Shown in pieces: positions 43,289 through 63,708 of a stretch of 64,000 bases of DNA. The stretch is taken from contig NZ_CP029482.1 of assembly GCF_003151075.1 (NCBI RefSeq), positions 5,146,001-5,210,000 on the forward strand, in the 5' to 3' direction. Each line of letters begins with the position of its first letter. The stretch's first letter is position 1. The notes beneath the pieces were generated by a model that did not search any database, was not told the DNA's origin, and saw only the letters and a program-made list of their open reading frames with translations. A program made the translations under genes and the position numbers. Source of the stretch: Pseudomonas sp. 31-12 (GTDB lineage Bacteria; Pseudomonadota; Gammaproteobacteria; Pseudomonadales; Pseudomonadaceae).

Positions 43289-43317
43289 GTTTCTTACAGC
43301 GCGAGGCTGAAATCAGA

Positions 43318-43362
43318 TGGTGTCCCAGGGCAGGTTCGAACTGCCAACCTTCCCCTTAGGAG
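43318..43362 (-). pseudogene. Truncated 3' half of tRNA-Arg(CCU): attachment site of the integrated element
   Basis: Reading the minus strand: anticodon loop CTCCTAA (anticodon CCU), stem GGGGA, variable AGGTT, T-arm GGCAG-TTCGAAC-CTGCC, acceptor strand CTGGGAC, discriminator A and encoded CCA (43318-43320). The 5' half is absent: the acceptor partner GTCCCAG and the D-arm are not found, and the 5' anticodon strand no longer pairs. This is the direct-repeat copy left when an element enters a tRNA 3' end; the rebuilt intact tRNA should lie beyond the right edge. Confidence 0.85.
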
Positions 43363-43516
43363 GCATATGCTTTGGTGAGTCAGCTCGATTCTGAACGCGT
43401 CCTAAATTGTCACAGCACACTGTTTTTAAAGGGGCGACCTATTCTGCTTGTGTCTTGAGGTTTCACCTTGTAGCGTTCTGCATCATGAGAAGTGGGGACC
43501 AAAGTGGGGACTAGAA

Positions 43517-44974: not shown

Positions 44975-45104
44975 TGACGACAGACAGAGAGCGGACAATT
45001 GCTGCCAACCACGAAGGGCCGCAATCACAACCCAAAGCTGATGGTGGCGACAGACAGAAATCGGCCAAAAGCAGACGCTCAAAAATGGCAGGTATTGCAA
45101 AATT
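44975..45104. other. Non-coding stretch after the integrase
   Basis: Holds two imperfect direct copies of a CGACAGACAGA...CGG motif (about 44978-44996 and 45048-45066). A 62-codon frame here has no family features and is not called. Confidence 0.4.
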
Positions 45105-45159: not shown

Positions 45160-45218
45160 TAACCGGGGGCCATTTTTCGCAACAACGCGGCTCGCGATGA
45201 GACGGCAACAGACCCTAG
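45160..45218 (+). repeat. 59-bp inverted repeat, copy A (right-facing)
   Basis: Begins TAACCGGGGGCCATTTTTCG and ends GGCAACAGACCCTAG. Its reverse complement recurs at 47293-47351 with only about five or six differences over 59 bp. Copy A contains the stop codon of the chemoreceptor gene. The two copies bracket that gene exactly. Confidence 0.85.
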
Positions 45219-46870
45219 AGCTGAAAGCGCGAGATGTTCTCTCGCAATGTCACGCTGGTGCGTGCCAGTCCTTCGCTTTCCTGCTGAGCGCTGCGGAAGG
45301 CTGCAGCGGATTGCTCGGCGCTTTCGCTGACGGTCACGATGCCCCGGCTGATCTGCTCGGCAACGGTACTCTGCTGCTCGGCGGCAGCGGCGATTTGGTG
45401 GTTCATGCCGTTGATCCGCTCGATCATGGTTACGATCGTGCTTACCGCGTCACCGGCCTCGGAAACGCCGGACACCGACTGCGCACTGGAGTGCTTGCAG
45501 CGTTGCATATGCTGCGAGGTCTCGTCGGCAATTTTCTGCAGACTGGCGATCAGCCCCTCAATCTCTGAGGTGGCCTTCTGGGTACGCTGTGCCAGGCTGC
45601 GCACCTCGTCGGCTACCACCGCGAAGCCGCGTCCGGCCTCGCCAGCACGGGCAGCCTCGATGGCTGCATTGAGGGCCAGCAGGTTGGTCTGGTCGGCCAC
45701 CGACTTGATCACTTCAAGCACGCCGCCGATATTGCCGGTTTCATTCTTCAGCCGGCCCATGGCCATGTTGGACTGTTCGATTGTCTCGGCCAGCTCGCCG
45801 ATCATGTTGACGGCATCTTTGGCCTTCTGCTGGCTGTACAGGGCCGCGCTATCGGCCTCGCTGGCGGCACTGGCGGCGGATTCGGCATTGCGCGCGACAT
45901 CCTGCACGGTGGCGGCCATTTGGTGAACGGCGGTGACGATCTGCTCGACCTCGCACTGTGCCATGGCCACGCTTTCGGCGTTTCTCAGGCTCGATTGGCT
46001 AAGCTCCTGGCTGGATTCGGCCACGGTCTGTGAGGACAGGTTTATGCCCTTGGTCATGTCCCGTAGGTTCTCCTGCATGCTTAGCAGGGCGGCCATTATG
46101 CTGGCTTGTGGTGGCTCAATCGTGCGCTCGATAGCGCGCAAATCGCCCTGGGCAACGCGTTGGGCGAGCTGGTTGAGTTCACTCGGTTCGGCACCCAGCG
46201 CGCGCAGCAGGTTGCGGCTGATGACGTAGCCCAGTACCGCTGCTAGTAAGACGGCCAGCGCAGTAATGGCGAGCAGCAGGTTGCGTTGTGACAGATAGTT
46301 TGCGTCATTTTCGCTGACCTGCAGGTCTGCCTTCTGGTTGGTGTAGCGCAGGTATTCGCCAATTGCCTGGGTCAGCTCGGCCAGTAATGGTGTGCACTGC
46401 TCGCTGACCATGCGCAGGGCCTCGTCGTTTTCACCCTTGAACAGGTGTTCGGCAATGGTTTGCGCTACCGGTTTGTAGCGGCTCTCGACCTGCTCGATGG
46501 TTGAGAACAGTTCACGTGCTTTGGGCGACACATCATCATGGTTATCAATTGCCTGGCGTAGGGCGGCGAGGCTGCTGGCCACCATTTGTTCGTTGACGGC
46601 AATCGCGCCCCGCTGCTGTCCTCTCGCGGTGACATTGCTGTTCAAGGCGATGTTACGCAGGGCAATCGCGCGCTGGGCGGCGGCGTCGTTCAGTGTGTTG
46701 GCCAGGCGGGTGCGTGCATCAACGCCATTAACGTAGAGAAAAAAGTCCTTATTGCTGTTAGCCAGGGCGTACAGCGAGATAGCGGCGATCAGCAACATAA
46801 ACGCTAGCAGGCTGGCATAGCCGGCATAGAGACTGCTCCGTGTAGAGAGCCGGGGAGTGTGCGATGGCAT
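45215..46870 (-). CDS. Transmembrane methyl-accepting chemotaxis protein
   Basis: 551 residues from the ATG at 46870 (an in-frame TTG 27 bp upstream is weaker). Span 1 about residues 13-36; periplasmic four-helix-bundle sensor (about 37-190); span 2 about 195-215; HAMP; then the signalling hairpin with tip [20 protein letters not shown] (about 365-384) and [17 protein letters not shown]. The ligand is unknown and there is no C-terminal CheR-binding pentapeptide. The gene sits between 59-bp inverted repeats, 6 kb from the chemosensory operon. It may feed that pathway or the host's own. Confidence 0.92.
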
Positions 46871-47292
46871 GATGTACCTGCGTAATGGGAGGAGCAATTT
46901 AGGGACACCTGCAAGGGTATGTATTCGCCCTTAGTCCGCATCCTGCGCAGGTATTCTTTTGTTCGACGGCAACGAGTAGCGGCGTTATTTCCTGGCTAGT
47001 TTGAACTTGTACAAATGTTGATACTTGTACAAGTCTTGTACAGCTATATTGGTATGATGTCGTCATGACATCATTCAATCCCGATGAACGGTCAGTAACC
47101 TCCGGTTTCTGGCAGGCGCGAGAAATAGAGGTCTGGCTATCGGGCTGACTACTGTTTGGCGGCGATACAGCCCAAGACCATCTTTGGGCCAATAGAATCC
47201 TGCGAGCGCTGTAAAAATGCGTAGCGCTATTTCTGTACAGGTATTTTGTATGGGGGGGAGCTAGGGCGCGCTAATTGTGAGCATGCGCTGCG
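46871..47292. promoter_or_regulatory. Upstream region of the chemoreceptor with operator-like repeats
   Basis: No gene is seen. TTGTACA occurs three times (47006-47012, 47024-47030, 47035-47041); the middle copy is the 12-bp palindrome ACTTGTACAAGT. Further on, ATGATGTC (47054-47061) and GACATCAT (47067-47074) form an inverted repeat with a 5-bp spacer. These look like binding sites for one or two dimeric regulators; which promoter they serve is unclear. Confidence 0.5.
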
Positions 47293-47351
47293 CTAGGGGC
47301 TGTTGCCGTTTCATCGCGAGCCGCGTTGCTGCGAGAAATGGCTCCCGGTTA
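47293..47351 (-). repeat. 59-bp inverted repeat, copy B (left-facing)
   Basis: Reverse-complement partner of 45160-45218. It lies immediately before the zinc-ribbon-like leader of the IS1182 transposase frame. Outside both copies similarity stops, and no clear target-site duplication is visible. Confidence 0.85.
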
Positions 47352-47473
47352 TGCGGGGCGAGTTCATTCTCGGATCTCCATGCGAGATGGCGGGGCAGGT
47401 TTGCCCAACGTGCGGCGAGGGGGTTATGCAAATGGCGAGCGATGGCGTTGACTGCCCCACTTGCGGGACATTC

Positions 47474-48400
47474 ATGCCGGCGCAAGTGACGTTGCTGCCG
47501 GAGTGTCTGGACGATTACGTAGCCGAAGAAAATCCAGTGCGCGTGGTTGACGTTTTTGTCGATGAACTCGACCTGGAGGCGCTTGGTTCTGAGGGCGTCG
47601 ATCCTGCCGCAACGGGTCGTCCGGCCTACCACCCAGCGGTGTTGCTGAAGATCTATATCTACGGCTACCTCAATCGGATTCAGTCCAGCCGTCGGCTTGA
47701 GCGTGAGGCCGAGCGCAACGTCGAGTTGATGTGGTTAACGGGGCGTTTGGCCCCGGACTTCAAAACCATTGCCGACTTTCGCAAGGACAACGGCAAAGCC
47801 ATTCGCAGCGTATGCCGCCAGTTCGTAGTTCTTTGCCGCAACCTCAATCTCTTCTCCCAATCGATCATCGCCATCGACGGCAGCAAATTCAAAGCCGTCA
47901 ATAATCGCGACCGCAACTTCACTCAGGGCAAGGTGAAGGCACGCACGCAGCAGATCGAGCAGAGCATTGATCGATATCTGGCGGCGATGGATTCGGCGGA
48001 TCGGGCAACGCCCGAAGTGGCCGAGGCCAAAGCAGAGCGGCTTAAAGAAAAGATAGAAACACTGAAAAAGCAGATGCAGAAACTCAAGGACATCGAGGCG
48101 CAGCTCCACGAAAGTCCAGACCAGCAGATCTCCCTCACAGACCCAGATGCACGCTCAATGGCTACGAGCGGCCGAGGCACCGGAACGGTTGGCTACAATG
48201 TACAAACAGCTGTCGACGACAAACACCATCTGATCGTTGCCCATGAGGTGACCAACGTTGGTAATGATCGTGGGCAACTGAGCAATATGGCGAGCCAGGC
48301 GCGTGAAGAAATCGAGGCTGAATCGCTAACGGTGGTGGCCGACCGAGGCTATTACAAAGGTCTGGAAATCCTTGCTTGCGAGCAAGCCGGCATCACTACC
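47474..48400 (+). pseudogene. IS1182-family transposase, 3'-truncated
   Basis: Homology runs from MPAQVTLLPECLDDYV through NPVRVVDVFVDELDL, STGRPAYHP-like and LMWLTGRL...DFKTIADFRKDNG, IDGSKFKAVNNRDRNFT, MATSGRGTGTVGYNVQTAVD and ends at ILACEQAGITT. The C-terminal third (with the last catalytic acid) is missing and is replaced by unrelated sequence and IS110 debris. The frame is open 171 bp upstream of this start, through two CPTCG motifs of uncertain origin. Non-functional. Confidence 0.85.
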
Positions 48401-48489
48401 TGCCTGGTTAGGTCTCGTAACTCGTTAGCATTCCAGCGTTGGAAGGCTAACGTTACTAGGCGTCAGCAAGCGAGAAGACTCGAGTTTGC

Positions 48490-48785
48490 GAACCTTTTGC
48501 GCTGGGACTGACACCGAAGCAACACAGTTCTGGTGGTAAGGATCGATTGCTCGGTATCAGCAAGCGCGGTGATGCATATCTGCGAACATTATTGGTGCAT
48601 GGACACGCTCGGCGCTACGCACAGCCAAATCTAAAGAGGATCGACTCAGCCAGTGGACCGTTCGTTTAGACGAGCGATCGCATCCCAATGTGGCCGGTAT
48701 TGCGCTGGCCAACAAAACTGCATGCATGGCTTGGGCGATGCTGCGTCACGGCAATGATTACCAACCGGATCAGGCAGCGGCCTAA
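48490..48785 (+). mobile_element. IS110-family transposase remnant (C-terminal end)
   Basis: Reads LGLTPKQHSSGGKDRLLGIS, KRGDAYLRTLLVHG, then after a one-base loss near 48604 continues RSALRTAKSKEDRLSQWTVR and ends ANKTACMAWAMLRHGNDY...AAA-stop at 48785. This is the conserved C-terminal domain of IS110/IS116/IS902 transposases. The N-terminal DEDD domain is missing. The downstream 250 bp may be the IS 3' end. Confidence 0.8.
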
Positions 48786-49696
<911 letters not shown>

Positions 49697-49728: not shown

Positions 49729-50520
49729 ATGAGTAGCGTTGTGGCAAAAAAAACAACCCAGGTTATAGCTGTATCCAACCGCAAAGGCGGTGCTGGTAAA
49801 ACGACAGTCGCGGTCAACCTGGCTGCAGAGCTTGCCGCGCTTGGAAAACACGTGTTGCTGATCGACCTTGACTCACAAGGCCATTGCGCTGTGGGGCTTG
49901 GACTGAGACATGTGGCCGGTGATGCCAGCGTGCATGACTTATTTCGTGGTCAGCCACGCGGGGTGCTCGACAGTATAAAAAACACGCAAGTAGAGCGTCT
50001 TGATATCGCACCGGCTGATCAGATGTTCGATCATGGTGGCGCCTCCCAAGACCATGCCAGTCTGGCAAGGGCGCTAGACGATGAAGACCTTAGGTCGCGT
50101 TACGAATATATTATTATTGATACGCCGCCATCATTAGACAGCTTACTGCTCAATGCATTGACTGCCGCAGACTGGGTATTGATTCCCTACATTCCCCAAG
50201 CGCTTTCGCTAGAAGGGGTTAAGCAGTTGATGCGGGTATTGTTCAAACTGATCTCGGCACAGAGTTCACATCTGCGCATTCTGGGTTTTTTGCCTATACA
50301 AGTTCACGGACAGGTGCGCTCACACCGCAAGGTCACGGGCGAAATCGCCCGTCAATTCGGCAGCCTGCGCCTGCTTGGGGGCATCCGCAGTGATGTGCGT
50401 CTGGCCGAATCGTTCGCAGCTGGCCAGCCCATCCGCCTATTCGGGCCTAAATGCCGTGCCGCCGAAGACTTTGTCGGGCTGGCCCGTCATCTGCTGGACA
50501 TTATGAACAAGGAAGCCTAG
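49729..50520 (+). CDS. ParA/MinD-family ATPase (orphan)
   Basis: 263 residues. Deviant Walker A KGGAGKTT (about 20-27), Walker A' IDLDSQGH, and Walker B IIIDTPPS (about 129-136). No ParB or parS-like repeats follow. ParA proteins near chemotaxis genes (ParC, PpfA) position receptor arrays; here it lies convergent to the chemosensory operon, 90 bp from its end. It could also be a plasmid or island maintenance gene. The first in-frame ATG has a poor ribosome site; GTG at 49741 is an alternative. Confidence 0.85.
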   Translation: MSSVVAKKTTQVIAVSNRKGGAGKTTVAVNLAAELAALGKHVLLIDLDSQGHCAVGLGLRHVAGDASVHDLFRGQPRGVLDSIKNTQVERLDIAPADQMFDHGGASQDHASLARALDDEDLRSRYEYIIIDTPPSLDSLLLNALTAADWVLIPYIPQALSLEGVKQLMRVLFKLISAQSSHLRILGFLPIQVHGQVRSHRKVTGEIARQFGSLRLLGGIRSDVRLAESFAAGQPIRLFGPKCRAAEDFVGLARHLLDIMNKEA

Positions 50521-50610: not shown

Positions 50611-52707
50611 CTATCTAGCTTTCAAGAAAACCAGCAATTCAGCGAATGGCATTGGCCTGGCAAAGTAGTAGCCCTGGAAGGTGTCGCAACCAGCTTGCTT
50701 GAGAAAGGCACTCTGCGCTTCTGTTTCTACGCCTTCAGCGATCACCTTCATGCGCAAATGGTGAGCCATCGAAATGATGCCCTGAGTAATAGCTGCATCA
50801 TCTTTATCGGTGATGATGTCGGTTATGAATGCACGGTCGATTTTTACTTTGCTTATCGGTAAGCGTTTCAAGTAGCTGAGACTTGAATAGCCTGTACCAA
50901 AGTCATCAATCGCAATGCCGATGCCAAGCTCTCTGAGTTTGTGCAGGTATCCGATGGCTTGGTCGCAATCGTTGAGGAGCACTGACTCGGTTATCTCCAG
51001 CTCCAACTGATTGGGGTTAAGATCATTTTGTTGCAAAGCAGTCAGGATGCTGTCTAGGAAGTCTTTACGGCGAAAGTGCACAGGCGAGATATTCACGGCC
51101 ATAGTCAGAGTGTTCATGCCCAATTCGGCAAGCTGCCGAGCCTGCCGGCAGGCAGTGTCCAGCACCCACAGACTGATCGGAATAATTTGTCCGGTTTCTT
51201 CGGCTACCGATATAAATGCCATGGGTGAGATGAAACCACGGGTCGCGTGCTTCCAGCGGATCAGTGCTTCCATGCCAATTACCTGGCCGCTGCGGCTATC
51301 GATCTGCGGTTGGTAGTAGAGCTCGAAGCCGTCTTCCTCAATTGCTTTTTGCAACTCACCGCGCAGCCTTACACGTTCGTGCACAACCTTGCTCAGGTCA
51401 TTGGTGAACCACTGGTAGTTATTGCGCCCTTCCTGTTTGGCCTTGTACATGGCCATATCGGCTTGCTGGATGAGCTCCATGGGGGATTCAATGCTGCCGT
51501 CGTTGAGCGTGATACCAATACTCGCGCTGGTATGAAAGGCGCTGCCATCGACATGGTAGGGATGTGACAACGCACAGAGTATCCGCTCGGTGATCGGGAC
51601 AACGTCTTCTTCCTGGGCCAAGTCAGCGAGCAGCACAACGAATTCATCGCCGCCGATTCGCGCTACGGTGTCGCCCGGACGAATCTGTTCACACAGGCGT
51701 CTTGCAACTTCTTTGAGAACTTGGTCACCAAAATGGTGGCCGTTGGAGTCATTGACCTGCTTGAAGCAGTCAAGGTCAATAAACATGACGGCAATGCAAC
51801 GATCAAAACGCAGAGCCACCTGGCAGCTTTGCGTCAGGCGGTCTTCGAGCAGTGTGCGGTTGGGCAGGCCGGTGAGTACATCATGGCTGGCATTAAAACT
51901 GAGCTCGTCCTGGTAACGCCGTTCTTCGCTGATGTCGTTCTGCACGCCGACGAAGTGGGTGACTGTATTGGCATCATCAAGTATGGGGGAGAGATAAAGG
52001 TCATTCAAAAACTGCGAGCCATCTTTGCGGTAGTTACGCAGTACGACGTGAATATCGCTGCAGCTCGCCAGCCCTTGGCGAATAGTGGTGACGCCTTTCT
52101 GGTTAAAGTCAGTGCCCTGAAGAAAGCGGCAGTTCTGGCCGATTACTTCGTCACTACTGTAACCGGTGATTCGCTCGAATGCATAATTCACGTAGATAAT
52201 TGGCTGATCCGCCGCCAGCACGTCGACAATTACCACACCGTTATAACTGGACTCCAGGCAGCGTTTGAACATGCGCAACTGCCGTTCATAATCCTTGCGC
52301 TCAGTAATATCGCGGGCCGAGCAGTAAATTACCTGTTCCTTACTTAAGGCCGCGCTGAGCTGCAGCCAGTGCAGTCCCAGCTGTCGGTCCCAGACACGAA
52401 AGTTCAGCTCACGAATCAAGTGCCCATCCTGCAGCTGCTCGATTGCCCCTCTGACTATGGGTTGATCCTCAGTGTGCACCAGGGTCATGTAAAGTTTGCC
52501 GATCAGTTCATCCTCACGGTACTGCAGGGTGTCGGCAAATGCCCTATTCACCTGAACCAGCTCCCCTGACAAACTGACAGTGCAGAACATCTCCAGTGAC
52601 AGGTCAAAAAACTGGTTGCGCTCGCGCATAACAATGTCGCCCAGGCGCTTTTCCACACGTTTTGCCGAAAGTAGTTGAGCAATGGATGTAGCTGCTTGAT
52701 ATCCCAT
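50611..52707 (-). CDS. PAS-LOV-GGDEF-EAL protein (probable light-responsive c-di-GMP enzyme)
   Basis: 698 residues, no membrane span. PAS (about 31-135), LOV (about 145-262), GGDEF (about 270-435) with intact GGDEF at 352-356, and EAL (about 445-698) with EAL at 480-482 and DDFGTGYSS. The LOV domain has GQNCRFLQG with the adduct-forming Cys193, Asn192 and Gln197, plus Asn225 (RNYRKDG), Asn235 (FLND) and Gln256 (VGVQND). Spacing matches B. subtilis YtvA except for a 2-residue insertion before the last Gln. It should bind flavin and respond to blue light. Last gene of the chemosensory operon, 21 bp after the previous one. Whether it makes or degrades c-di-GMP cannot be told from sequence. Confidence 0.93.
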
Positions 52708-52728
52708 GAGGCCTCCCAGAATTTGATC

Positions 52729-53946
52729 TTAAAAAAGTTCAATTTTAGGCAGCGTCGATTTATCTTTGCCCCCGCTAGGTGCGTGCAAGAACTCCTCCTC
52801 GAGATAGTCCTTCAACAGTTGTTCCATTTCCTCGGCCGCCACACCACTGACTAATACTGGCAACCAGCGAGCTCTAAGTTGTTCACGCCGAGACTGACAG
52901 CCGATAACCCGTTCAATACGCTGGCGGACGATATCCTGCACCTGGAGATTGCCCAGCATCTCGGCGATCTCGCCAGCCAGGGTCGAATTGTGCCGGCGAA
53001 CCACCGTATACAGCGTCTTGTAGTACTGACGCATATCCTCCTGGCTGTGGTGCAGAGATTTGAGCGAGGCGACAATGCGTGCGGCCTCGGTTGAGCGGCC
53101 ATTGGCAGACCCCTGAAAAGCTTGGAGACCATCACGGACTGTCTGCTGCATGGCATCTAGGCCATTCTGGATGGCCAAGGCGGCTTCACGGGTGCGTTCC
53201 GATAATTTACGCACCTCATCCGCCACCACCGTGAAACCACGCCCTGCCTCGCCGGCGCGAGCAGACTCAATACAGGCATTGATAGCCAGCATGTCCGTCT
53301 GTTTGCTTATGGACTGGATCAGCGCACTCAAGGTCTTTAGGCTACCGACTTTGTCATATGCCCCTTCGATGATGCCCATATCACGCTGCATAATCACAGG
53401 TAGCTCTTCGACGAAACGGCATACATCAGCAATGAACAGCAAGCTGCCGTCAATTTCACGCTCCATGCTCGCCGCCTCGCTACCCGATTGCTGAAGGTAT
53501 TCAATCAGGTGTAATGCATCGGTATTCAGGCGCCCCACCTTATCGACCAGAGCCAGCGCGCTCGACTCACTGTCGGCGATCACGCTCGTCAACTGCGTAG
53601 CCATTGCCTCATCCAGGGACTCGGATAGCCCACGGGCACGCTCGCTCTCAAGCCGCAGCCGCTCCAGAAGCAAGTTCTGCTGCGCCGCCGCGTGGTCAAG
53701 AGCCTGCGCGGAAGCACGCTGCACACCCCGGTAAAGGCCAAACAGGGTTAGGAGCATCACTGCACCTACCAGCAGCAACAGGAGCCCTAGACGGGCCGCC
53801 AAAGGCAGTAATGCAAGCGTGCTATCCAACAAGCCCACAGCAAAACCAACCGCTGCTATCGCCGCCAGACCGCCAACCATAAAGGGCCCACAGCGAACAT
53901 CAGACCGTAGGTCTGGCGTTAGCACAGCATCCCAAGCTGTATTCAT
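52729..53946 (-). CDS. Membrane MCP-like protein with CheZ-type DxxxQ motif
   Basis: 405 residues. Two closely spaced spans (about 22-45 and 48-72) with almost no periplasmic loop. A shortened receptor signalling hairpin follows: [20 protein letters not shown] (tip, about 214-233) and [20 protein letters not shown]. The C-terminus contains [17 protein letters not shown] (about 333-349), where Asp338 and Gln342 fit the DxxxQ catalytic pair of the CheY-P phosphatase CheZ. The extreme C-terminus (LPKIELF) recalls the CheZ CheY-binding tail. The operon has no separate cheZ, and this gene starts 2 bp after a cheY. Phosphatase activity is inferred. Confidence 0.85.
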
Positions 53947-53948
53947 AT

Positions 53949-54323
53949 TCAGACCCCCGGTAACACCTGTTTGATCACCTGCAAAAGGTCAGCGCCACCG
54001 ACTGGCTTGACCAGCCACCCTGTTGCACCCAGGCGCTTTGCCTCCTCACGCTTGCCTTGCTGGCTTTCCGTGGTGAGAGCGAGGATCGGCATAAAGCGAA
54101 AACCAGGCAAGCTACGCACCTGCTGGATAAGCTCAATGCCGCCCATATTCGGCATGTTGATATCGGTGATGATCAGGTCCGGCTTATAACCCGTTTTTAG
54201 TTTGGCCAGCGCTTTCACCCCGTCCTCGGCAGTTTCAACGGCAAAGCCACTCATCTCTAGATTTGTTCTCACGCTCATCAACATCGTGACCGAGTCGTCC
54301 ACCAACATAATGCGTTTGCTCAT
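53949..54323 (-). CDS. CheY-like single-domain response regulator (second copy)
   Basis: 124 residues. Acid pair in MLVDDS, phospho-Asp in [13 protein letters not shown] (about residue 54), Thr in LALTTES and Lys in WLVKPVG, with LGATGW as in flagellar CheY. All switch residues are present. Lies between the STAS-like gene (10 bp) and the CheZ-like gene (2 bp). The target may be the motor or another output. Confidence 0.93.
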
Positions 54324-54333
54324 CAGGTATACC

Positions 54334-54573
54334 TCAGTAGGCTGGCAATGCCGCCTGTAACCAGAGTTTCAGGGAAGCATCACCGGGCCAGACACTAAGC
54401 GTCGGGCGCAGGGCCATAAGAACCTGCAAATTTGCGGCGTGCAGATGAGTACAACTAGCAAGGTTGATTTTTGCGTCTGGATGCCTTTGCAGCCAATCAA
54501 GTAAACCTTCTGCTTCCTCGACGCCGACTACGCCCTCCATGCGCGCGCTCTTTTTCTGAAAATGAATAGTCAT
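54334..54573 (-). CDS. Small STAS-like protein
   Basis: 79 residues from the ATG at 54573, whose A is shared with the cheA stop (TGATG). The pattern MTIHFQKKSARMEGVVGVEE, then INLASCTHLHAANLQVLMAL resembles an anti-sigma-antagonist STAS fold, with the usual Asp-Ser phospho-site replaced by CTHLHAAN. Tight coupling to cheA suggests a role in the complex, such as a STAS adaptor. Function unproven. Confidence 0.7.
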   Translation of the reverse strand: MTIHFQKKSARMEGVVGVEEAEGLLDWLQRHPDAKINLASCTHLHAANLQVLMALRPTLSVWPGDASLKLWLQAALPAY

Positions 54574-57293
54574 CAAAACAGCTCCTGTGGATTGAGAACC
54601 ATTAGGATCGAGCCATCACCCAGCAGAGCTGAGCCTGAATAACCGGGTAGTTGGCCGAGAATGCCGGCGAGCGGCTTAAGGATGATGTCCACGGTTTCAC
54701 GGAAGTCATCGACGATGATGCCCACCGGTTCGCCTTGATGACGCACCACCAGGGTTGCGAACTCATCTTCGAGGTTGGGCAGCTGCGCCTGTGATAAGTC
54801 CAGCAGCTGATTCAGATCGAGCAGCGGTATCACTTGCCCGCGCAGAATGGCCGTACGATGCTGCTTGATGTTGCGTATCGCATTGCGCGGAACCCTCACA
54901 GTTTCTACCACGCAATCCATCGGCACCCCGAACACTTGCTGGTAAGACTCGACGACCATCACACTACTCACCGCCATCGACAGTGGCAGCGACAGCACAA
55001 TACGGGTGCCCTTGCCCACCTGGCTTTCCAAACGAACGCTGCCGTTAACTCGCTCGATAGCGCTACGTACCACGTCCATGCCGACACCGCGCCCTGACAG
55101 ATCAGAGACCGCCTCGCAGGTTGAAAAGCCAGCAGCAAATACCAGGTTTACCGCGTCTGCATCGCTCAACCGCTCCAAGGCTGTTTCGTCCAACAAGCCT
55201 TTCTCGTATGCCTTGGCCTTGATCACGGCGGGGTCGATACCTTTGCCGTCGTCGCTGATCTGAATCAGCACACGGTCCGCTTCCTGGCTCGCGCGAATCT
55301 CCAGTCGACCGCCTGCCGGCTTGCCCTGGCGAATACGCTCTGCGGGCAATTCGATACCATGGTCAAGGCTGTTACGCAGAATGTGGATCAGTGGATCAGC
55401 CAAGGACTCAATGATGTTCTTGTCGGCCTCGGTGTCCTCACCGATAAGTTCCAGGCTGACTTCCTTGCCCAGCTTGCGCGAAATATCGCGAATCAGCCGT
55501 GGAAAGCGCTGAAAAACAGATGAAACCGGCAGCATGCGCACCTGCATGATCGAGTCCTGCATTTCTTCGGCGATGCGGTTAATCACCGCGTATTGCGCCT
55601 TGATCTCGCGCGCTAGATCACGCACGCCATGCTGGTGCTCAGCGCGGCTGGCGAGATAGGGCAGCGAGTTTTTAGCCACCACCATTTCGCCAATAAGCGC
55701 CATCAGACGGTCGATTTTGGCCTGGTCGACTTTAAGTGTGGTGCTTAAGCTCACATCCTCTGCACGCCGCCCGAAACGCGACTCAGCCTCTGCGGGCGCA
55801 GCCGCAGCAGCAGTACTTTCACGCAGCACGGGCTCCAGCACCGCAGTCTCGCTTTGGTCATCAGCGGGCTCACCCAGTTGAGACCGGGTGACGGTCAGCC
55901 AGTCGCGCAGCGGCCCCGATGTAGCCTGCTCAAGTGACTGCTCAAGAGCAGCATCCAGCGCGGCGAGTAACTCTGGCGAAGCAACCCCAGCCAGACAGCC
56001 GGCAAGGCTCGCAGCCACCGCCTGCAAGCGCCCCGGCAACCAAGACGCCGCATCGGACAAACTCAGAATGCTGTGTTGAGCTATCAGTATCTGGCGCAGC
56101 GATACATCCATTTCAGGTTCTGCGCTCGCCCTTGCAGCCGCCTGTGCGGTCGCCTCTGTAATTGCCTGTGACGGCGCTTCAACATGCCGCTGTGGCTGCG
56201 TCTTAGCTTGCGCCAGGTAGGCCGCCCAGTCAGGCCCGTCGGCGGATTCAAGCGAGCGAATCAGGTAGCTGGCCACCGCTAAATCATCTGCATGCACGTC
56301 CAGTATCAACATCAGCCAACGTAATGCCGAGCTCAGCCAGAGGTCCGGCGCGGACAACTCCAGCAGGGTGCGGGTAACACGGACCAGCGTCTCGCGGTCC
56401 CCCTGCTGCAACGCCGCTAAGGCATCAGTCATAAAGTCGGCGTACACCGGCCCGCTGTTTGGCTCACCTTGCGCAATGATCAAGCAAACGGCTGGCACGC
56501 TGAATGTATCGAGTTGCTCCGGCGTATAGCGGAACAACTCCATCAGGTGCGCTTGGCTGTCTTGGGTGAGCAACTGAAAGCACAGGTTGCAGTTGTAGGC
56601 ATCTAACTCGAGCAGCGGAGCCCAATGCGCACGCTCAAGCACGCGCTGCCAGATAACCTGGGGGATTTGCCGAACCTGGTGTAAAGGGTCCTCACCATTG
56701 AAGAAACAATCGGCAAGAGGGTTGTACTCGACCCAATGCAGGGCACTGCCCTGGCAGGCGCTGCGGTACACCTCCATGCGCACGGATTCAGGCACGGCAC
56801 TCAAGGCCGTGTGCACCAACGCCAATGCCTGCTGGGAAAATACCTCTGTCTTGGCATCCTCCACTGCTGACTGCGCCGGCTCGGCGGCCTCTGCATGCAG
56901 CGGCTTTTGCACACCTAACAATTCACGCAAGTCAGCGGCGAGCGCCGCCGCAATGTTGGCTTGCTGTGGATCGGTCGAGCCGCTCTGCTCCACCTGATCG
57001 GTTAGTTGACCGACAAAGTCCATGGCATCGAGCAGGCGGTCGGCGAGTTCGCGCGAATAAGTCAGGCGACCATCGCGCACGGCGTCCATGACATCTTCAC
57101 CGGCATGCAGCACCCGGGTCATTTCAGGGAAATCGAATAGCCCACTGTTACCCTTGAGGGTGTGCACCATGCGAAACAGTTCGTTGATCAGGTCACGACT
57201 GTCTGGCTCACTCTCCAGTTGCATCAGCCGTTCAGCGATGCCCTGCAGAAAGTCGCGCGTCTCCTCAAGGAACTGCTGCAGTAATGGGTTCAT
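54573..57293 (-). CDS. cheA: Chemotaxis histidine kinase CheA
   Basis: 906 residues, well above the usual 650-750. Hpt domain (about 1-105) with His in FRMVHTLKGNSG (about residue 44). A long, poorly recognised middle (about 150-510) includes NCNLCFQLL and Ala-rich helices in place of a standard P2. Then dimerisation (about 520-590), ATPase (LIHILRNSLDHGIE, ISDDGKGID, GRGVGMDVV) and a CheW-like end with HQGEPVGIIVDDF. It phosphorylates CheY and CheB. Overlaps cheY by 4 bp. Confidence 0.94.
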   Translation of the reverse strand: MNPLLQQFLEETRDFLQGIAERLMQLESEPDSRDLINELFRMVHTLKGNSGLFDFPEMTRVLHAGEDVMDAVRDGRLTYSRELADRLLDAMDFVGQLTDQVEQSGSTDPQQANIAAALAADLRELLGVQKPLHAEAAEPAQSAVEDAKTEVFSQQALALVHTALSAVPESVRMEVYRSACQGSALHWVEYNPLADCFFNGEDPLHQVRQIPQVIWQRVLERAHWAPLLELDAYNCNLCFQLLTQDSQAHLMELFRYTPEQLDTFSVPAVCLIIAQGEPNSGPVYADFMTDALAALQQGDRETLVRVTRTLLELSAPDLWLSSALRWLMLILDVHADDLAVASYLIRSLESADGPDWAAYLAQAKTQPQRHVEAPSQAITEATAQAAARASAEPEMDVSLRQILIAQHSILSLSDAASWLPGRLQAVAASLAGCLAGVASPELLAALDAALEQSLEQATSGPLRDWLTVTRSQLGEPADDQSETAVLEPVLRESTAAAAAPAEAESRFGRRAEDVSLSTTLKVDQAKIDRLMALIGEMVVAKNSLPYLASRAEHQHGVRDLAREIKAQYAVINRIAEEMQDSIMQVRMLPVSSVFQRFPRLIRDISRKLGKEVSLELIGEDTEADKNIIESLADPLIHILRNSLDHGIELPAERIRQGKPAGGRLEIRASQEADRVLIQISDDGKGIDPAVIKAKAYEKGLLDETALERLSDADAVNLVFAAGFSTCEAVSDLSGRGVGMDVVRSAIERVNGSVRLESQVGKGTRIVLSLPLSMAVSSVMVVESYQQVFGVPMDCVVETVRVPRNAIRNIKQHRTAILRGQVIPLLDLNQLLDLSQAQLPNLEDEFATLVVRHQGEPVGIIVDDFRETVDIILKPLAGILGQLPGYSGSALLGDGSILMVLNPQELF

Positions 57294-57661
57294 GGCGCAC
57301 CCCTGCCGAGCAATAACGATACATAGGCAAGCAAAGCCTCTGGCTTGGCTGGCTTTATCAGGTACAGATTCGCACCGGCGGCATAAGCGGTACTCAGGTC
57401 ATGCGACTCCGACTCCGTTGAGATCATGATCGCTGGCGCCTGCGGCAACGCCTGGGTACGCAACTCGCGCAGGAACGTATAGCCATCCATCTTCGGCATA
57501 TTGACGTCGACCAGGTAGAGATCGAACGGCTCTTCTAGTGCCTTCTCCAGCCCCTCTAAGCCATTCATCGCCTCGTCAACGGAGTAACCCGCAGGCTCCA
57601 GAATGCTCCGGTGGTAAAGGCGCACTGTCGCGGCGTCGTCAACGATGAGAATCCGCTTCAT
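57290..57661 (-). CDS. CheY-like single-domain response regulator (first copy)
   Basis: 123 residues. LIVDDAA, phospho-Asp in YLVDVNMPKMDG (about residue 52), Ser in MISTES and Lys in YLIKPAKP. Overlaps both cheR (upstream) and cheA (downstream) by 4 bp, so it is translated with them. Differs enough from the 53949 copy that the two probably have different partners. Confidence 0.93.
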   Translation of the reverse strand: MKRILIVDDAATVRLYHRSILEPAGYSVDEAMNGLEGLEKALEEPFDLYLVDVNMPKMDGYTFLRELRTQALPQAPAIMISTESESHDLSTAYAAGANLYLIKPAKPEALLAYVSLLLGRGAP

Positions 57662-58500
57662 TGCTCCTCCCAGGATTTCTGATAAACGATGCTTTCCGGG
57701 AACTTGCGTATTTTGAACAGCGAGGAAATACGACTCATGGATTCCGAGTGGCCAAGGCAGACAAAGCCGCCCGGGTTTAAGGCGTCGAAAAACGTTTCCG
57801 CGGCCTGTCGTCGTGACAAATCATCGAAATAGATCAGCAAGTTGCGGCAGAAAATCACGTCAAAATCACGGTATCCGCGCACGGCATTGGCATCCATCAG
57901 GTTGACCTGGGTAAACTCCACGGCATCGCGCAAGTCATCGCATATCTGGAACATATCGCCACGCCGGGTGAAGTACTTTTTTAGTAAGGGTTCCGACACG
58001 TTCATCACTGAGCGGGCTGAATACAGGCCATTACGGGCCTGCTTTAAAATCTGCGTATCGATATCCGAGGAGATGATTTCAATGTCCCACTCGGCGATGG
58101 CCGGCCATTGCTCAAGTAAATAAATTGCAATGGAGTAGGCTTCTTCGCCGGACGATGACGGCACCGACCAGATCCGGATCGGTTTGCGATCGCGCTTATT
58201 GCGCACTATCTCTTCAAGCATCGAGCCCACCAAGCAACGAAACTGGTAGTCCTCGCGAAAGAAGTAGGTTTCGTTGACCGTCATCAGGTTAATTAACGCC
58301 TGAACTTCTTCGCCTTTGGTGTCAAAACGCAGCTGCATGAAATAATTGCGAAAACTGTCCGATTCGGTTGCATTGATACGCTCAAGCAAACGCTTATCGA
58401 CGAAGTACCGCTTGCTGTCTTCAAACTGAATTCCAGTCTTGCGATAGAAGAACTCACGAAACTTGCGGAACTCTTCTTCGCGAATACTGATGGCTGTCAT
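57658..58500 (-). CDS. cheR: Chemotaxis methyltransferase CheR (element copy)
   Basis: 280 residues. Motifs: ETYFFREDYQFRCL, IWSVPSSSGEEAYSIAI (motif I; usual AGCS replaced by VPSS), SSDIDTQIL, FCRNLLIYFDD and CLGHSESM. Distinct from the flagellar cheR at 28545. It should methylate this operon's receptors. 5 bp after the HEAT gene. Confidence 0.93.
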   Translation of the reverse strand: MTAISIREEEFRKFREFFYRKTGIQFEDSKRYFVDKRLLERINATESDSFRNYFMQLRFDTKGEEVQALINLMTVNETYFFREDYQFRCLVGSMLEEIVRNKRDRKPIRIWSVPSSSGEEAYSIAIYLLEQWPAIAEWDIEIISSDIDTQILKQARNGLYSARSVMNVSEPLLKKYFTRRGDMFQICDDLRDAVEFTQVNLMDANAVRGYRDFDVIFCRNLLIYFDDLSRRQAAETFFDALNPGGFVCLGHSESMSRISSLFKIRKFPESIVYQKSWEEQ

Positions 58501-58505
58501 ACTGC

Positions 58506-59129
58506 TTAACCCTCACCGATTCGCTTAAGCGCGAGCTTGCTTGCGAACCAGATGTAAGGCTCGTTGGGGAAGCGCCAAGTCATGCTTTCCAATGCGGGTC
58601 GTGCGGCACTGCTGCCGACCTCAACCAGAACATCGATAGCACCGGCGCAGACATTGATGTGCGGGTCTCGCTCAAGTACCTCAATTAGCCAAGACTCAAC
58701 CTGCGGGTGGCGCAGCGTGGCGAGAATATTGATGGCAAACAGGCGTACGTCCGAGTCGCGGTCGTGCAATAGCTGTTCGATAATGCGTACTACCGGCTCA
58801 GACAATTTAGCCATCGCCTCGATGGCCTCGTTGCGCAGGCCAGCGTCTTCACTGCGTAAGCAATTGACCAACGCGTCGATCGCCACTCCATCACCAATGC
58901 ATGTCAGGCTGGTCAGCAGAACCTCACGCACGCTGGTGTCTGTTTCCACATACAGACGCTCGGCCAAAGCAGTACTAGCCGCCGGAGTAGACGCCAGGTC
59001 CCTTGCCGCCCAGCGTCGCGCACTCGGTTCGGCAGCGGCTAACTCGCAGAGTAACCCCTGAAAATCCCTGGTATGGCGGCGCTCGTAATCCTCATTGGTG
59101 GTGACGCTAGACGGCTTTTTAATGGGCAT
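58506..59129 (-). CDS. HEAT-repeat protein in the chemosensory operon
   Basis: 207 residues, all helical. At least four HEAT-type units, for example SARRWAARDLAS, DTSVREVLLTSLTCIGD, DAGLRNEAIEAMAKLSE, DSDVRLFAINILATL and DPHINVCAGAIDVLVEVG. No enzyme motif. Most likely a scaffold or adaptor; HEAT proteins do occur in some non-flagellar chemosensory clusters. Sits between cheB (19 bp) and cheR (5 bp). Confidence 0.85.
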   Translation of the reverse strand: MPIKKPSSVTTNEDYERRHTRDFQGLLCELAAAEPSARRWAARDLASTPAASTALAERLYVETDTSVREVLLTSLTCIGDGVAIDALVNCLRSEDAGLRNEAIEAMAKLSEPVVRIIEQLLHDRDSDVRLFAINILATLRHPQVESWLIEVLERDPHINVCAGAIDVLVEVGSSAARPALESMTWRFPNEPYIWFASKLALKRIGEG

Positions 59130-59148
59130 ATTGAGTCGATTCCTCAGC

Positions 59149-60210
59149 TCAGCACATGGTCCAGGAGATGAGTTGATCGGCTATACGATCAGCATCCAGG
59201 GTTAACGACGCGCCCTTACGGGCAATTAGCTCCGCTGGCATGCCAAACACCACAGCGGTATTTTGCGACTCGGCGATGGTTCTGCCGCCGCCCCGACGAA
59301 TCTCGCTAAAGCTGTCGGCGCCGTCGTGGCCCATGCCGGTCAACATCACGCCAATCAGCCCTGCCGGCTTAACGTGCTCCATGGCTGAGCGGCCCATCAA
59401 CTCGACCGATGGATGCCAAAGAAATCCGCTGTTTTCCGGCTTGGCGAGTACGGTCAGACGTCCATTTCGACGCCCTACCAGCATGTCCGCACCGCCCTTG
59501 CCTATGTATACGCAGCCCGGTTCCAGTGGCATTGGCCGCGAAGCCTCTACCACTTCAAGCTCGCAGATACCATTGAGCCGGCTGGCAAACGGCAGGGTGA
59601 AACTGGCCGGCATGTGCTGAGCGATCAGAATTGGTAATGGGAAGTCGCCAGGCAGATGCGGCAGGATGTCCTCAAGGGTGCGCGGCCCACCGGTAGAAAC
59701 GCCGATCAACACCAGGCCCTCATCCAGGCTCTGGCGTGACAATGAGCGTCGCTCGACAGCAGCCACGCTTTCACGTTCAGCCTTCAGCCGCGTGCCCAGC
59801 CCGCGCGCTTTATTCAAACGTGCGCGCAACGCTCCACGCACTTTGGCCAAAAGTTCGGCCTCGATCCGGTCCATGGACAGGGAGATGGTGCCGCCAGGCT
59901 TGGCTACATAATCAATCGCACCCAGCGCCAGCGCCTCAAAGGTTGCCAGAGCGCCCTTCTCGGTCAGCGAAGACACCATCACCACCGGCGCCGGGCGCAT
60001 CGCCATGATCTGCGCTAAAGCCGTCAACCCGTCCATCTCTGGCATGTTGATGTCCAGCGTGATGACGTCCGGCTGGAACTCCATGTTTTCAGCCACTGCT
60101 TCAGCGCCGTTACGCGCCATGCGTATCTGAAAATCACCCTGCTGATTAAACATCTGGGCTAACTGGCGGCGCATCAGCGCGGAATCGTCGACTATCAGCA
60201 GTTTGATCAT
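59149..60210 (-). CDS. cheB: Chemotaxis methylesterase CheB
   Basis: 353 residues. N-terminal receiver (about 1-125): VDDSALMR, phospho-Asp in VITLDINMPEMDG, VSSLTEKG and Lys in YVAKPGG. C-terminal esterase (about 165-350): Ser in GVSTGGP, His in IAQHMP and Asp in GMGHDGAD. It removes methyl groups from receptors once phosphorylated by CheA. 5 bp after the CheW fusion. Confidence 0.94.
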   Translation of the reverse strand: MIKLLIVDDSALMRRQLAQMFNQQGDFQIRMARNGAEAVAENMEFQPDVITLDINMPEMDGLTALAQIMAMRPAPVVMVSSLTEKGALATFEALALGAIDYVAKPGGTISLSMDRIEAELLAKVRGALRARLNKARGLGTRLKAERESVAAVERRSLSRQSLDEGLVLIGVSTGGPRTLEDILPHLPGDFPLPILIAQHMPASFTLPFASRLNGICELEVVEASRPMPLEPGCVYIGKGGADMLVGRRNGRLTVLAKPENSGFLWHPSVELMGRSAMEHVKPAGLIGVMLTGMGHDGADSFSEIRRGGGRTIAESQNTAVVFGMPAELIARKGASLTLDADRIADQLISWTMC

Positions 60211-60215
60211 GTGGA

Positions 60216-61772
60216 TTACTCGGAAAATGATTCGAGTTCGCTCAGATCAACGCCCTCAACCATGCAAGCTGCGTCGATCAACTGGATCATTCGATTCTTC
60301 AGGTTGGCCACACGACCAATCAGTCGCGCCTGTTCACCTGACAGGCGTGGCGAGGCCTCGATCAGGTGCAATGGAATTTTCAGCACCTCAGTGACCGAAT
60401 CGACGATAAAACCGGTGCGCACGTCGCGAATGAGAAAGATCATGATCCGCTGACGATCGTTACGCTCAACTGGCGGCAGGCCGAAACGACAACGCTGGTC
60501 GATGACCGGCAGTACCGTGCCGCGCAGGTTGATCACGCCCTCAACAAAGGCCGGTGATTTCGGCACGTGCGTCAACTGCTCAGGAACGCGCACGATCTCC
60601 TGGACACTCTCGATCGCTACGCCAAACTCTTCGCTACCGAGGCGAAAGACAACGACTTGTTCCTCGTCATCAACACCTTCGTTATCCGTTGGCTCGTTAT
60701 CCAGCGCTTCGTCGTTTAGATTTTCCACGCTGTTCAGAGCCTCCTTGATGGTGGCATGACGAAACATGTTTTCGACCGCAATGATCGAGACCAAGCGCTT
60801 ACCGTCTTCCAGCCGACAAATCTCAGTAATGTCGGAGAGATCGCCATTACGGGCTAACAAGCCGGGCATTGCGTCGATCTGTGCTTTAGGTACCCGCAGG
60901 ACCTCATTGACGCGGTCCATCACCACCCCCACGGAGGAGGCGCCCAAGGACACCACCACGATTCGACTCTGCTCGTCAGCACTGCGCGGCGGCAGTCCAA
61001 ACAGGCGGCGCAGCGAGACCAGAGGCAACAACCGGTTACGCAGGGTCATGACCCCCAAGACGTGAGCTTCAGAGTGCGGAACGTGGACAATCTGTTCGGG
61101 TACCTGGACGATTTCCTGAACATCTTTGATGGCAATTGCATACTCCTGCTCGGCCACTTCGAAGCTGACCAAATGCAACTCGTCGTTGACTAACTCCTCA
61201 TCGTCGCCCTCTTTGCGGTCGCCAACAAACACGCTACTGCCTGCCAGGCTGCCACCCAACTTGGCAATGGTTTCGAACTCGCTGGCTATCAGCTTGGCGA
61301 AGTCCAGCACCATGACCATGGGGTAACCCGCCACGTCCTTGAGCAGCCCGCAGAGCAGTTCCGTGTTCACCGTACTGCGAAGAGCTCCTACGTCATGTAT
61401 GCACCCAGCCTCGACACCGACCACGCTGGCCACACGATCCACCACAAAGCCCAAGGGCTGACCCAGGTCGATGACCAAGGCGCGGGTTGCGTCATCATGC
61501 TCACGCTCCGGCAGACCAAATACCCGCTGCAGAGAAATGATCGGTAAAACCTTGCCGCGCAGATTGGCCAGGCCGTCCAGCGTCGCGGGCGCCAATGGCA
61601 CGAGTACCACTTCCGGTACGCGGATAATCTCCTGCACCGGCGCCATATCCACGGCGAACACTTCGTCTCCAGCCATGAAGACGACGTACTGGGTAACGTC
61701 GGCGTCCTGCAACTCGCTGGTGTCATCCTCATTGCGCGTCGATGCACCGCGCTCAAGCATTTCAGTTGTCAT
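60216..61772 (-). CDS. Triple-CheW fusion scaffold
   Basis: 518 residues from the ATG at 61772; an in-frame extension would overlap the upstream receptor gene. Three CheW domains in a row, starting near residues 26 (QYVVFMAGDEVFAVDM), 200 (LVSFEVAEQEYAIAI) and 370 (VVVFRLGSEEFGVAI). Each has its own LPxxSLRRxFGLP-type core and joined by acidic linkers. Ordinary CheW is one domain of about 160 residues. This is the operon's only CheW, so it must link receptors and CheA, perhaps setting a different array geometry. Confidence 0.93.
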   Translation of the reverse strand: MTTEMLERGASTRNEDDTSELQDADVTQYVVFMAGDEVFAVDMAPVQEIIRVPEVVLVPLAPATLDGLANLRGKVLPIISLQRVFGLPEREHDDATRALVIDLGQPLGFVVDRVASVVGVEAGCIHDVGALRSTVNTELLCGLLKDVAGYPMVMVLDFAKLIASEFETIAKLGGSLAGSSVFVGDRKEGDDEELVNDELHLVSFEVAEQEYAIAIKDVQEIVQVPEQIVHVPHSEAHVLGVMTLRNRLLPLVSLRRLFGLPPRSADEQSRIVVVSLGASSVGVVMDRVNEVLRVPKAQIDAMPGLLARNGDLSDITEICRLEDGKRLVSIIAVENMFRHATIKEALNSVENLNDEALDNEPTDNEGVDDEEQVVVFRLGSEEFGVAIESVQEIVRVPEQLTHVPKSPAFVEGVINLRGTVLPVIDQRCRFGLPPVERNDRQRIMIFLIRDVRTGFIVDSVTEVLKIPLHLIEASPRLSGEQARLIGRVANLKNRMIQLIDAACMVEGVDLSELESFSE

Positions 61773-61797
61773 GAGTCTTCCCCTCGAACGATCAAAC

Positions 61798-63708
61798 TCA
61801 GAAGCTCTGCAGTTCATCCGCGAGCGAGGCGATTTCCTCAATGGCAGCAGCCAGTTCTTCTGCCCCCTGCGACTGTTGCTTGGCAGCGGTGGCGGCCTCG
61901 GTGGCGGACTTGTCCGCTTCCTGAGCGGCGGCGGCGATCTGATCGATGCCGGTTTTGATCTGAGCGACTGCTGAGGCCACTTCGATCGCTGCATCGAGGA
62001 TGTCCTGGGTCGCGCGGTCGACATCGCTTATATCGCCCTCGATGACCACCAGAGCACTGGTTGAAACCTTGGCCTTCTCCACCTCTGACAGACCGGAGGC
62101 GGCGATCTCTTCAAGGTCACGGCCAACGATGCCAATTTGATCTTGCACCCCTTTAACCAGGTCTTTGATGCGATCAGCGTTCTCCGCGGAATCGTGTGCC
62201 AGGTTGCGAATGTCGGTGGCCACCACCACAAAGCCTTTACCGAACTCGCCGGCGCGGGCTGCCTCGATGGAGCCGTTCACGGCCAGCATGTTGGTCTGGA
62301 TTGAGACTGTGGTAATGGCGTCGACGATCTTGTCGATCCGACGTGACACCAACTCCAGATCCTTGATTTGCTTGATGCTGTCCTTGGTCGACATCACTGC
62401 CGAGGAAATCCCCTTGATCAGTTCGTCGACGCTGCCTTTGTTGATGGCCAGCAGGTTGCGGATCGCCAGCACCTTGTCTTTGCCTGTCGTCGCGCGAGCG
62501 CGGGCGATCTCTAGACCTTTTTCGATCTGTTCGATCGCAGCAGCCGACTCTTCACTGGCGGCCGCCTGCACTTGGGCGCCTTTACGAATTTGATCAATGG
62601 CCGCCATGATTTGTGAGCTGGAACGATTGATCTCCTGCAACGCGGACGACAACTCTTCTGCGGCGGAGGCAACCTCTTCGGCGCTTTTCGCCACATCGGT
62701 TGAGTTCTTCAGGTCCTCGGCCAGTTCAGACAGGCTTTGCGCAGCGGCTTCGCACTGGGCCAAGGCCTGCGCTTGCTCCGCCACCGTTTTGGCCGATTCC
62801 TCAGCAGCAGCGGACTGTTCCTCGGCTGCTGCGGCGATCGTCTCTGAGCCCTTTATGGCCTGTTGTGAAGCGGTTACCGACTGTTGTGCGCCGATGGCAA
62901 TTTCACGAATGCCTGAGGCGATTTCAAAAGCATCAACACGAATTTGCTCAAGCTGCCCACCAATCGTGCGGCCGCGGTCAAGCTGACCTTCGACCTCCTT
63001 GGCTGAACTGTTTATGCCCTCAGAAATACCTTTGACCTCTTCGCGGATTTGCCCGACCAGCTCCTGGATCTGTTTGGCGCTTTTCTCTGAGGTTTCCGCC
63101 AGTGTGCGTACCTCGTCGGCGACGACGGCAAAGCCTTTACCGTGCTTACCGGCTCGTGCGGCTTCGATTGCCGCGTTGAGTGCCAACAGATTGGTCTGAT
63201 CGGCAATACGCACGACAGCTTTGATGATGTCGCCGATATTCGCCGCTTGACGCTCCAGCTCAGCCACCATCTCGACTGATGCCGACTGGCGCTGCGCAGC
63301 CAACCCAACATTATTAATCAGTGACGAGATGTCAGCACTAGTTTTGACGACTAAGGCCTGCGTGGCATCGACCTTTACCTGGCTGGTTTCCGAGCTGAGC
63401 AACTGACGGCTGATGCCTTGATCAACCTGCTTAAAGGCTACTTGTGACTCTTGCGCGGCGCCGGACGCCTCTTCTGCACCGGTTGCGATCTGGTCGGAAG
63501 AGCGCTTGAGCTCCTCGGAAGCGGATGCGGCCTGGGCGATACCGGCCGACAGTTGACCGGTGGCAGCCGCAACCCGTTCGGCCGCCTGCTGTTGCTTGGC
63601 AAGGGTACGCGCACGCTTGCGCTGGGCATCGGCGTCACGCTTCATATCGCCCGAGGAGCGGACATCAGACGAGGCGGTGAACGTCGAGGATTTCTTGACT
63701 AGAGCCAT
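61798..63708 (-). CDS. Soluble chemoreceptor with two tandem signalling hairpins
   Basis: 636 residues, no membrane span and no recognisable ligand domain; nearly all coiled coil. It has two separate receptor tips: [20 protein letters not shown] (about 167-186), followed by [16 protein letters not shown], and [20 protein letters not shown] near residue 465, followed by [17 protein letters not shown]. Gln/Glu pairs that could be methylated occur along the helices. It looks like an internal duplication that has diverged. First gene of the operon, 25 bp before the triple CheW. Confidence 0.92.

Follow-up and report, generated by a model that had tools for sequence, protein, structure and literature searches.

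A class F9 chemosensory operon with an accessory LOV enzyme gene, carried as cargo of an element integrated at a tRNA-Arg gene in Pseudomonas sp. 31-12

The window analysed here is a stretch of 64,000 nucleotides from Pseudomonas sp. 31-12 (contig NZ_CP029482.1, positions 5,146,001 to 5,210,000), and it carries at positions 50611-63708 a chemosensory operon of eleven tightly packed open reading frames (ORFs), all on the minus strand. From the first gene to the last, these encode a 636-aa DosM-type receptor with two signalling domains (61798-63708), the triple-CheW protein CheW3 (60216-61772), a CheB methylesterase with a receiver domain (59149-60210), a HEAT-repeat protein (58506-59129), a CheR methyltransferase (57658-58500; CheR_N and CheR), a first CheY-like receiver (CheY1, 57290-57661), a 906-aa CheA histidine kinase (54573-57293; Hpt, H-kinase_dim, HATPase and CheW), a conserved 79-aa protein (54334-54573), a second CheY-like receiver (CheY2, 53949-54323), a 405-aa membrane protein (52729-53946) and a 698-aa PAS-LOV-GGDEF-EAL enzyme (50611-52707). 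A preliminary description of this DNA had placed eleven co-directional genes here, and both the ORFs and the Pfam domains of the named parts bear this out. Read from its first ATG, the CheW3 frame overlaps DosM by 227 bp; because many of its relatives are about 520-530 aa long, the gene probably starts at the ATG at 61772, which leaves a gap of 25 bp to DosM and agrees with the small intergenic distances described before. The gap between the membrane protein gene and the LOV gene is 21 bp, and a weak scan, which over the whole region returned 2 promoter-like and 12 terminator-like sites as against 6.4 and 12.7 in shuffled sequences, found neither kind of site in it. The small protein (79-80 aa), earlier called “STAS-like”, has no match in Pfam or NCBIfam, and its best hit among solved structures (E 0.034) is not convincing.

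Class F9 is defined, in the available passages of PMC9321776, by DosM, a receptor with double signalling domains, and by CheW3 with three CheW domains, a signature “unique to this class”; the same source counts full F9 clusters in 64 species out of 2781 and describes numerous horizontal transfers. In the window, Pfam finds two MCPsignal stretches in tandem (61798-63708), three CheW stretches in one protein, and CheA, CheY, CheB and CheR in the same cluster. Since DosM and CheW3 match the published signature, the operon without its LOV gene is, by its predicted domains, a complete chemosensory system of class F9. For the same reason we reject the idea of an entirely new class, and the earlier statement that no described system has this gene set does not hold, as far as the accessible text of PMC9321776 and PMC7534058 goes; the operon represents a class already known, in a form that is new in being mobile and associated with light. 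Cluster I of Vibrio cholerae comprises, according to PMC7534058, DosM (VC1403), a triple CheW (VC1402), CheA (VC1397) and a membrane receptor (VC1394), and counting from VC1403 down to VC1394 fits the ten genes of the window at these four named numbers, a comparison by description only. Both systems have a DosM with two signalling domains, CheW3, CheA, CheY proteins and a terminal membrane receptor-like protein. The window copy differs in lying on an element whose two ends have been located at tRNA-Arg, in having a LOV-GGDEF-EAL gene behind the last conserved gene and a convergent ParA, and in having a LOV-GGDEF enzyme with a kinase and a regulator upstream; for the V. cholerae region itself the term genomic island has been used (PMC2890568). 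The V. cholerae F9 arrays are described as purely cytoplasmic and two-layered, with a function “still elusive” (PMC7534058, in part). We call the two-tipped receptor of the window presumably soluble because class F9 is described as cytoplasmic.

A second chemotaxis system controlling flagellar rotation would be another way to read the operon, and the two CheY-like proteins in it fit such a role. By eye, both differ from the host F6 CheY at the positions which we take to be those contacting FliM. The V. cholerae CheY-1 and CheY-2 lack the residues for FliM contact (PMC2890568), and a deletion of the F9 CheA in that species had no detectable phenotype under standard conditions (PMC7534058), as stated in the passages available of both sources. 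Flagellar control by the F9 system of the element is, therefore, very unlikely.

The F9 core recurs widely. When named genomes were scanned with CheA, 115 relatives could be confirmed, of which the best 80 were kept and joined by four plasmid loci, giving 84 loci; genes were counted from tblastn and BLAST matches, as the ORF picker dropped some genes in GC-rich loci. In the 54 “wide” loci, which reach at least 7 kb before and at least 6 kb after CheA, DosM, CheW3, CheB, the HEAT protein, CheR, CheY1, CheA and CheY2 are always found (54/54), and the 79-aa protein is found in 50. The gene order is that of the window in 42 wide loci; in the other 12, the membrane protein and the second CheY are swapped (five) or the only match to the membrane protein is a cross-match to DosM (seven). 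Such recurrence of the same genes in the same order in distant genomes places the gene set far from chance. Two points weigh against too general a reading of these counts: keeping the best 80 of 115 CheA relatives favours close relatives, with CheA present by construction, and the seven loci with a mere DosM cross-match have to be subtracted wherever the membrane protein is concerned. Among 72,556 plasmid records a near search gave a single match covering 4% of the query, and F9-like loci on plasmids were found by protein searches; phages searched with the two-tipped receptor (E<=1e-20) gave no match.

A ParA ATPase (49729-50520, plus strand), overlooked in the preliminary description, lies convergent with the operon and is of the F9-associated type. 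Of the 54 wide loci, 35 have a ParA gene no more than 16 kb from CheA, with 38-59% identity to the window ParA, and in the remaining 19 none was found at that distance; the best-scoring other ParA homologue in the window genome is 33% identical. A plain partition gene of the element was rejected on account of these F9-neighbour identities. In all 35 wide loci having ParA it is co-directional with CheA, and in the window it is on the opposite strand. Rhodobacter sphaeroides has a cytoplasmic chemosensory cluster with the ParA-like PpfA, where soluble receptors stand, as here, near a ParA-family ATPase; to our knowledge it contains neither DosM nor CheW3, and the likeness is one of description only.

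The membrane protein at 52729-53946 combines the hairpin of a methyl-accepting chemotaxis protein (MCP) with a CheZ-like QDxxxQ stretch and a conserved C-terminal tail. “CheZ-like membrane protein”, as it had been called, was a good hint: the C-terminal signature is CheZ-like, and the family by Pfam is MCPsignal (4.6e-23). Among 81 F9 loci (L010-L090), 70 gave an ORF of suitable length, and Q.QD...[QK] is present in 69 of these, the sole miss being cut by a contig end. For an alignment of 48 rows, the window protein and 47 of the 70 ORFs, near-duplicates and odd lengths were thinned by hand with the motif column in view; all 48 rows carry Q.QD...Q, and invariance is confined to nine columns of the MCP hairpin and to Q335, Q337, D338 and Q342. 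We take QDxxxQ to be the pattern of the active-site stretch in CheZ (D143/Q147 in the E. coli protein); in the host CheZ this stretch reads QDLTGQ. Other receptors of the window genome were sampled as well (30 fetched of 41 matches, 29 with a readable hairpin), and just one of the 29 has even a looser QD...Q after the hairpin. In a profile comparison with 28 CheZ the motif falls in register (E 3.4e-4, probability 38%), with E 0.013 for the N-terminal part of the membrane protein and 0.09 for DosM as controls. The protein ends in LF or FF in 67 of 70 ORFs. In a structure model (mean predicted local distance difference test 85.8, predicted template modelling score 0.52), N-terminal helices occupy residues 3-9 and 20-44; an extended helical part begins at residue 49, the final helix stops at 388, and confidence is low at 398-405. 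CheZ has a flexible CheY-binding tail, which the conserved low-confidence tail modelled here recalls.

Natural variants point in the same direction. A Polynucleobacter form (L018:13379-14161) keeps motif and tail without the MCP hairpin; this short form is found in two of the seven loci with the DosM cross-match (L018 and L037) and in L017, which is outside the 54 wide loci. In Azospirillum brasilense, the F9-like operon has no such membrane protein annotated and is accompanied by CheC-type phosphatase genes (L093:11084-11722 and L093:23096-23737). In genome G004 (L161, G004:C4:74000-78000), a protein with hairpin and QDxxxQ is the neighbour of CheY and CheA in a chemosensory cluster of another type; it may belong to a McpA/CttP-like family. 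Because the invariance of the motif, its register with CheZ and the three natural variants agree, the membrane protein is probably a membrane-anchored CheZ-type phosphatase of phosphorylated CheY, which would end the CheY signal. Like CheZ, it has QDxxxQ in register and a conserved C-terminal tail, which follows a stretch that is modelled with low confidence and is probably flexible; unlike CheZ, it is joined to an MCP hairpin and to N-terminal helices that could span the membrane, and it falls below Pfam recognition. A plain CheZ was tried as an identity and failed on that recognition.

Several results speak against the phosphatase assignment. The CheZ profile match is weak, with a probability of 38% at best, dropping to 11% (E 0.0027) with full-length CheZ only and to 2% (E 0.022) with ten close CheZ. 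The Pfam CheZ family (PF04344) does not match the window membrane protein; at E<=1 it picks up 10 of 48 relatives (best 2.5e-4), alongside other coiled-coil families that match by chance. In a PDB search, the motif part hits only a dephospho-CoA kinase (E 0.011), probably by chance. An ordinary receptor, of the 24H or the unaligned membrane-bound type and feeding the F9 or the flagellar array, would explain the MCPsignal match and the matches to solved receptor structures. VC1394 has been suggested to join F9 or F6 arrays (PMC7534058, section 8.1), and its orthologues are described as unaligned membrane-bound receptors of unknown function (PMC2890568), as far as the text of both sources is accessible. 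This explanation has to place the invariant QDxxxQ, which lies beyond the part matching solved receptor structures and separates 69 of 70 ORFs from all but one of 29 other receptors, and it meets difficulty in the hairpin-free Polynucleobacter form and in the CheC genes of the Azospirillum operon. We regard an ordinary receptor as possible, if rather doubtful, and retain the CheZ-type phosphatase as the better account. The phosphatase idea was not met for this protein in the literature searched, including the passages available of PMC7534058, PMC2890568 and PMC7184735.

The operon is part of an integrated element of known ends. At 43317-43363, attL repeats 47 bp from the 3' end of tRNA-Arg(CCT) without a mismatch; attR (genome positions 5242781-5242827) lies at the intact tRNA-Arg(CCT) gene (5242782-5242858), and the two repeats enclose 53,511 bp. 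Two relatives (G005 and G034) have empty sites, where the flanks adjoin with only 46 bp shared at the repeat. A sibling element in G011, with a relaxase 98% identical and no F9 CheA match, shares the backbone next to attL (43317-45053); this common backbone stops at 45053 and restarts at genome position 5216192, and the F9 cassette is therefore cargo of the element. Among 398 genomes of the genus an F9 CheA match (E<=1e-120) is found in the window genome alone, and in a tree of 64 loci the window groups with Methylicorpusculum (L012, local support 0.994), far from the F9 locus of Pseudomonas duriflava (L064). The F9 operon has been acquired horizontally, on an integrated element. The portable module proposed in the preliminary description is thus well founded, with the cassette extending past the right edge of the window, which had been overlooked. 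Relaxase relatives (E<=1e-150) occur in 5 of 298 genomes of the genus, the own genome included. In a scan covering part of the genes of the element, a TrwC relaxase (1.3e-35), a replicase and weak coupling-protein domains (best 3.4e-6) were identified, and the 53.5-kb element is probably integrative and conjugative. A probable site-specific integrase of 508 aa (43448-44974, plus strand), so named from its position and sequence and without a Pfam match, adjoins attL.

Insertion sequence (IS) remnants flank the cassette on both sides. The left one is a transposase remnant (47303-48511, plus strand), which has a 42-bp inverted repeat with the IS remnant on the far side, and between it and ParA lies a remnant of a cation-transporting ATPase (Cation_ATPase_C, 49338-49661). 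The same cargo includes a 4HB-type methyl-accepting receptor (45215-46897, minus strand), a possible partner receptor of the array. Just outside attL, a 1382-aa CheB-CheR-PAS-histidine kinase-receiver hybrid (38483-42631) is a chromosomal neighbour of the element, and, as regards the separate cheV-cheR pair of the preliminary description, a CheR homologue and an ORF with a CheW domain lie at about 28.5-30.6 kb of the window (L003). In G032 (G032:C1:2127652-2195132), three copies of the tRNA-Arg end stand about 34 kb apart around a relaxase 93% identical; these are perhaps tandem elements of the same family.

The LOV protein retains intact GGDEF and EAL motifs and the LOV motif NCRFLQ, which we take to be the flavin-binding cysteine motif. 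It resembles the LOV/PAS GGDEF-EAL photoreceptor enzymes in keeping these motifs. Relatives at E<=1e-220 were found in 14 of 396 genomes of the genus, the own genome included, the best other being 72% identical; 16 other LOV matches, among those listed, lie in open frames of 950-2035 aa, and the window protein is a stand-alone form of 698 aa that ends a che operon. Eleven relatives were fetched, ten gave a GGDEF frame and nine of the ten keep NCRFLQ. None of the 13 other genomes with LOV-protein relatives has an F9 CheA match (E<=1e-120), and no LOV motif was seen at any of the 16 GGDEF/EAL genes that the flanks of the 84 F9 loci yielded. The LOV protein is thus rejected as a conserved part of the system: of the expected gene-order conservation, the F9 core was recovered and the LOV gene was not, and the LOV and che genes, earlier presented as one set, are conserved apart from each other. 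From these comparisons the LOV gene is best described as a recruited accessory in a variable slot after the membrane protein. Genes of cyclic di-GMP (c-di-GMP) turnover concentrate at the F9 edges: the first kilobase of flank (142,483 bp) holds 11 GGDEF/EAL genes and the stretch from 1 to 9 kb (581,825 bp) holds 5 (binomial p = 2.8e-5). Counting five related marine loci once weakens this association, to 7 versus 5 (p = 0.0035).

A second LOV c-di-GMP enzyme, also overlooked in the preliminary description, lies upstream of the operon and beyond the window. A LuxR-type regulator (L091:1036-1677), a PAS histidine kinase (L091:1674-3359) and the LOV-GGDEF enzyme (L091:3731-4663), all on the strand of the F9 operon, occupy genome positions 5210036-5213663 to the right of the window, 327 bp before DosM. 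Homologues of the kinase and the regulator are upstream of F9 in L031, L048 and L095, and both are present in L051, too. Upstream of F9 in Eleftheria terrae (L095:12162-14638) there are a BLUF protein, a histidine kinase and a regulator; this is the only BLUF match among the 84 loci, so that domains of the blue-light type occur near F9 in two dissimilar forms, one in the window and the other at a single further locus. Judging from their domains and position, the two LOV enzymes probably make c-di-GMP turnover responsive to blue light and would be co-expressed with the array.

The LOV gene and the F9 operon could be mere neighbours, with an element that gathers unrelated cargo and a LOV enzyme working independently of the array. 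Such independence accords with the missing LOV motif at other F9 loci, with the same-genus relatives that lack F9 and with the IS remnants bounding the cassette; moreover, since ParA is inverted in the window and co-directional in all 35 wide loci having it, the 3' end of the operon has been rearranged. Set against this are the same strand, the 21-bp gap without a terminator-like site, the second LOV enzyme on the other side of the operon and the enrichment of c-di-GMP genes at F9 edges. We give mere neighbourhood slightly less than an even chance. The alternative, a coupling of light to c-di-GMP through the array, is a plausible hypothesis, slightly strengthened by the additional LOV c-di-GMP enzyme beyond the opposite end of the operon. 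That array and enzyme signal to each other directly would be only a guess.

In the closest relative of the window operon the place behind the membrane protein is taken by a different module. In L012, Pfam identifies RsbR, RsbS, RsbT, a second ATPase, a SpoIIE phosphatase, an RsbU_N kinase, a receiver and ParA in a row; the stressosome module lies at L012:14564-18687. Searched by tblastn with the L012 proteins, RsbR, RsbS and RsbT occur together in 13 of the 84 loci (L012, L022, L040, L054, L055, L056, L057, L059, L062, L067, L082, L087 and L090), where they begin between 15 bp and 2.1 kb behind the F9 cluster; L084, with an RsbT-like match only, was left uncounted. Downstream sequence of at least 2.5 kb is available for 69 loci, which include twelve of the 13; L055 has less. 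As a rough yardstick, several of the loci being from other classes, an RsbRD_N domain occurs anywhere in 18 of 274 genomes of the same class, the window genome being one of these with two matches away from the F9 operon. In the literature matches listed, 12 of 442, the word stressosome does not occur. The phosphatase reading and the stressosome association are the strongest new content of this analysis, and both go beyond what had been claimed before.

Taken together, we consider it likely that the window holds a full F9 system as cargo of a 53.5-kb element at tRNA-Arg(CCT), with a terminal CheZ-type phosphatase and a recruited LOV accessory conferring light-responsive c-di-GMP turnover. By analogy with V. 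cholerae, DosM would span two CheA/CheW3 baseplates and scaffold a cytoplasmic double-layer array, whose input would have to come from a further receptor, perhaps that of the 4HB type (45215-46897). Going by their families, CheA would phosphorylate the two CheY-like receivers, CheB and CheR would adapt the array and ParA would position it. The membrane protein, in our proposal, would not sense but strip the phosphate from CheY and end the signal, and the slot behind it would take an output module, a stressosome in some relatives and a blue-light c-di-GMP enzyme in the window. A far more tentative proposition is that F9 arrays in general are stress and light hubs, with a receptor hairpin made into a CheZ-type phosphatase and an exchangeable output slot for stressosomes or c-di-GMP enzymes; the window would then be a mobile blue-light version where array and light jointly set c-di-GMP. 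We rate this as unlikely in its full extent.

The cassette shows how a large sensory system can travel as cargo of an integrative element. The F9 arrays of V. cholerae have been imaged, yet their function is called elusive (PMC7534058, in part), and the comparison of F9 loci presented here yields testable ideas on the role of this class.

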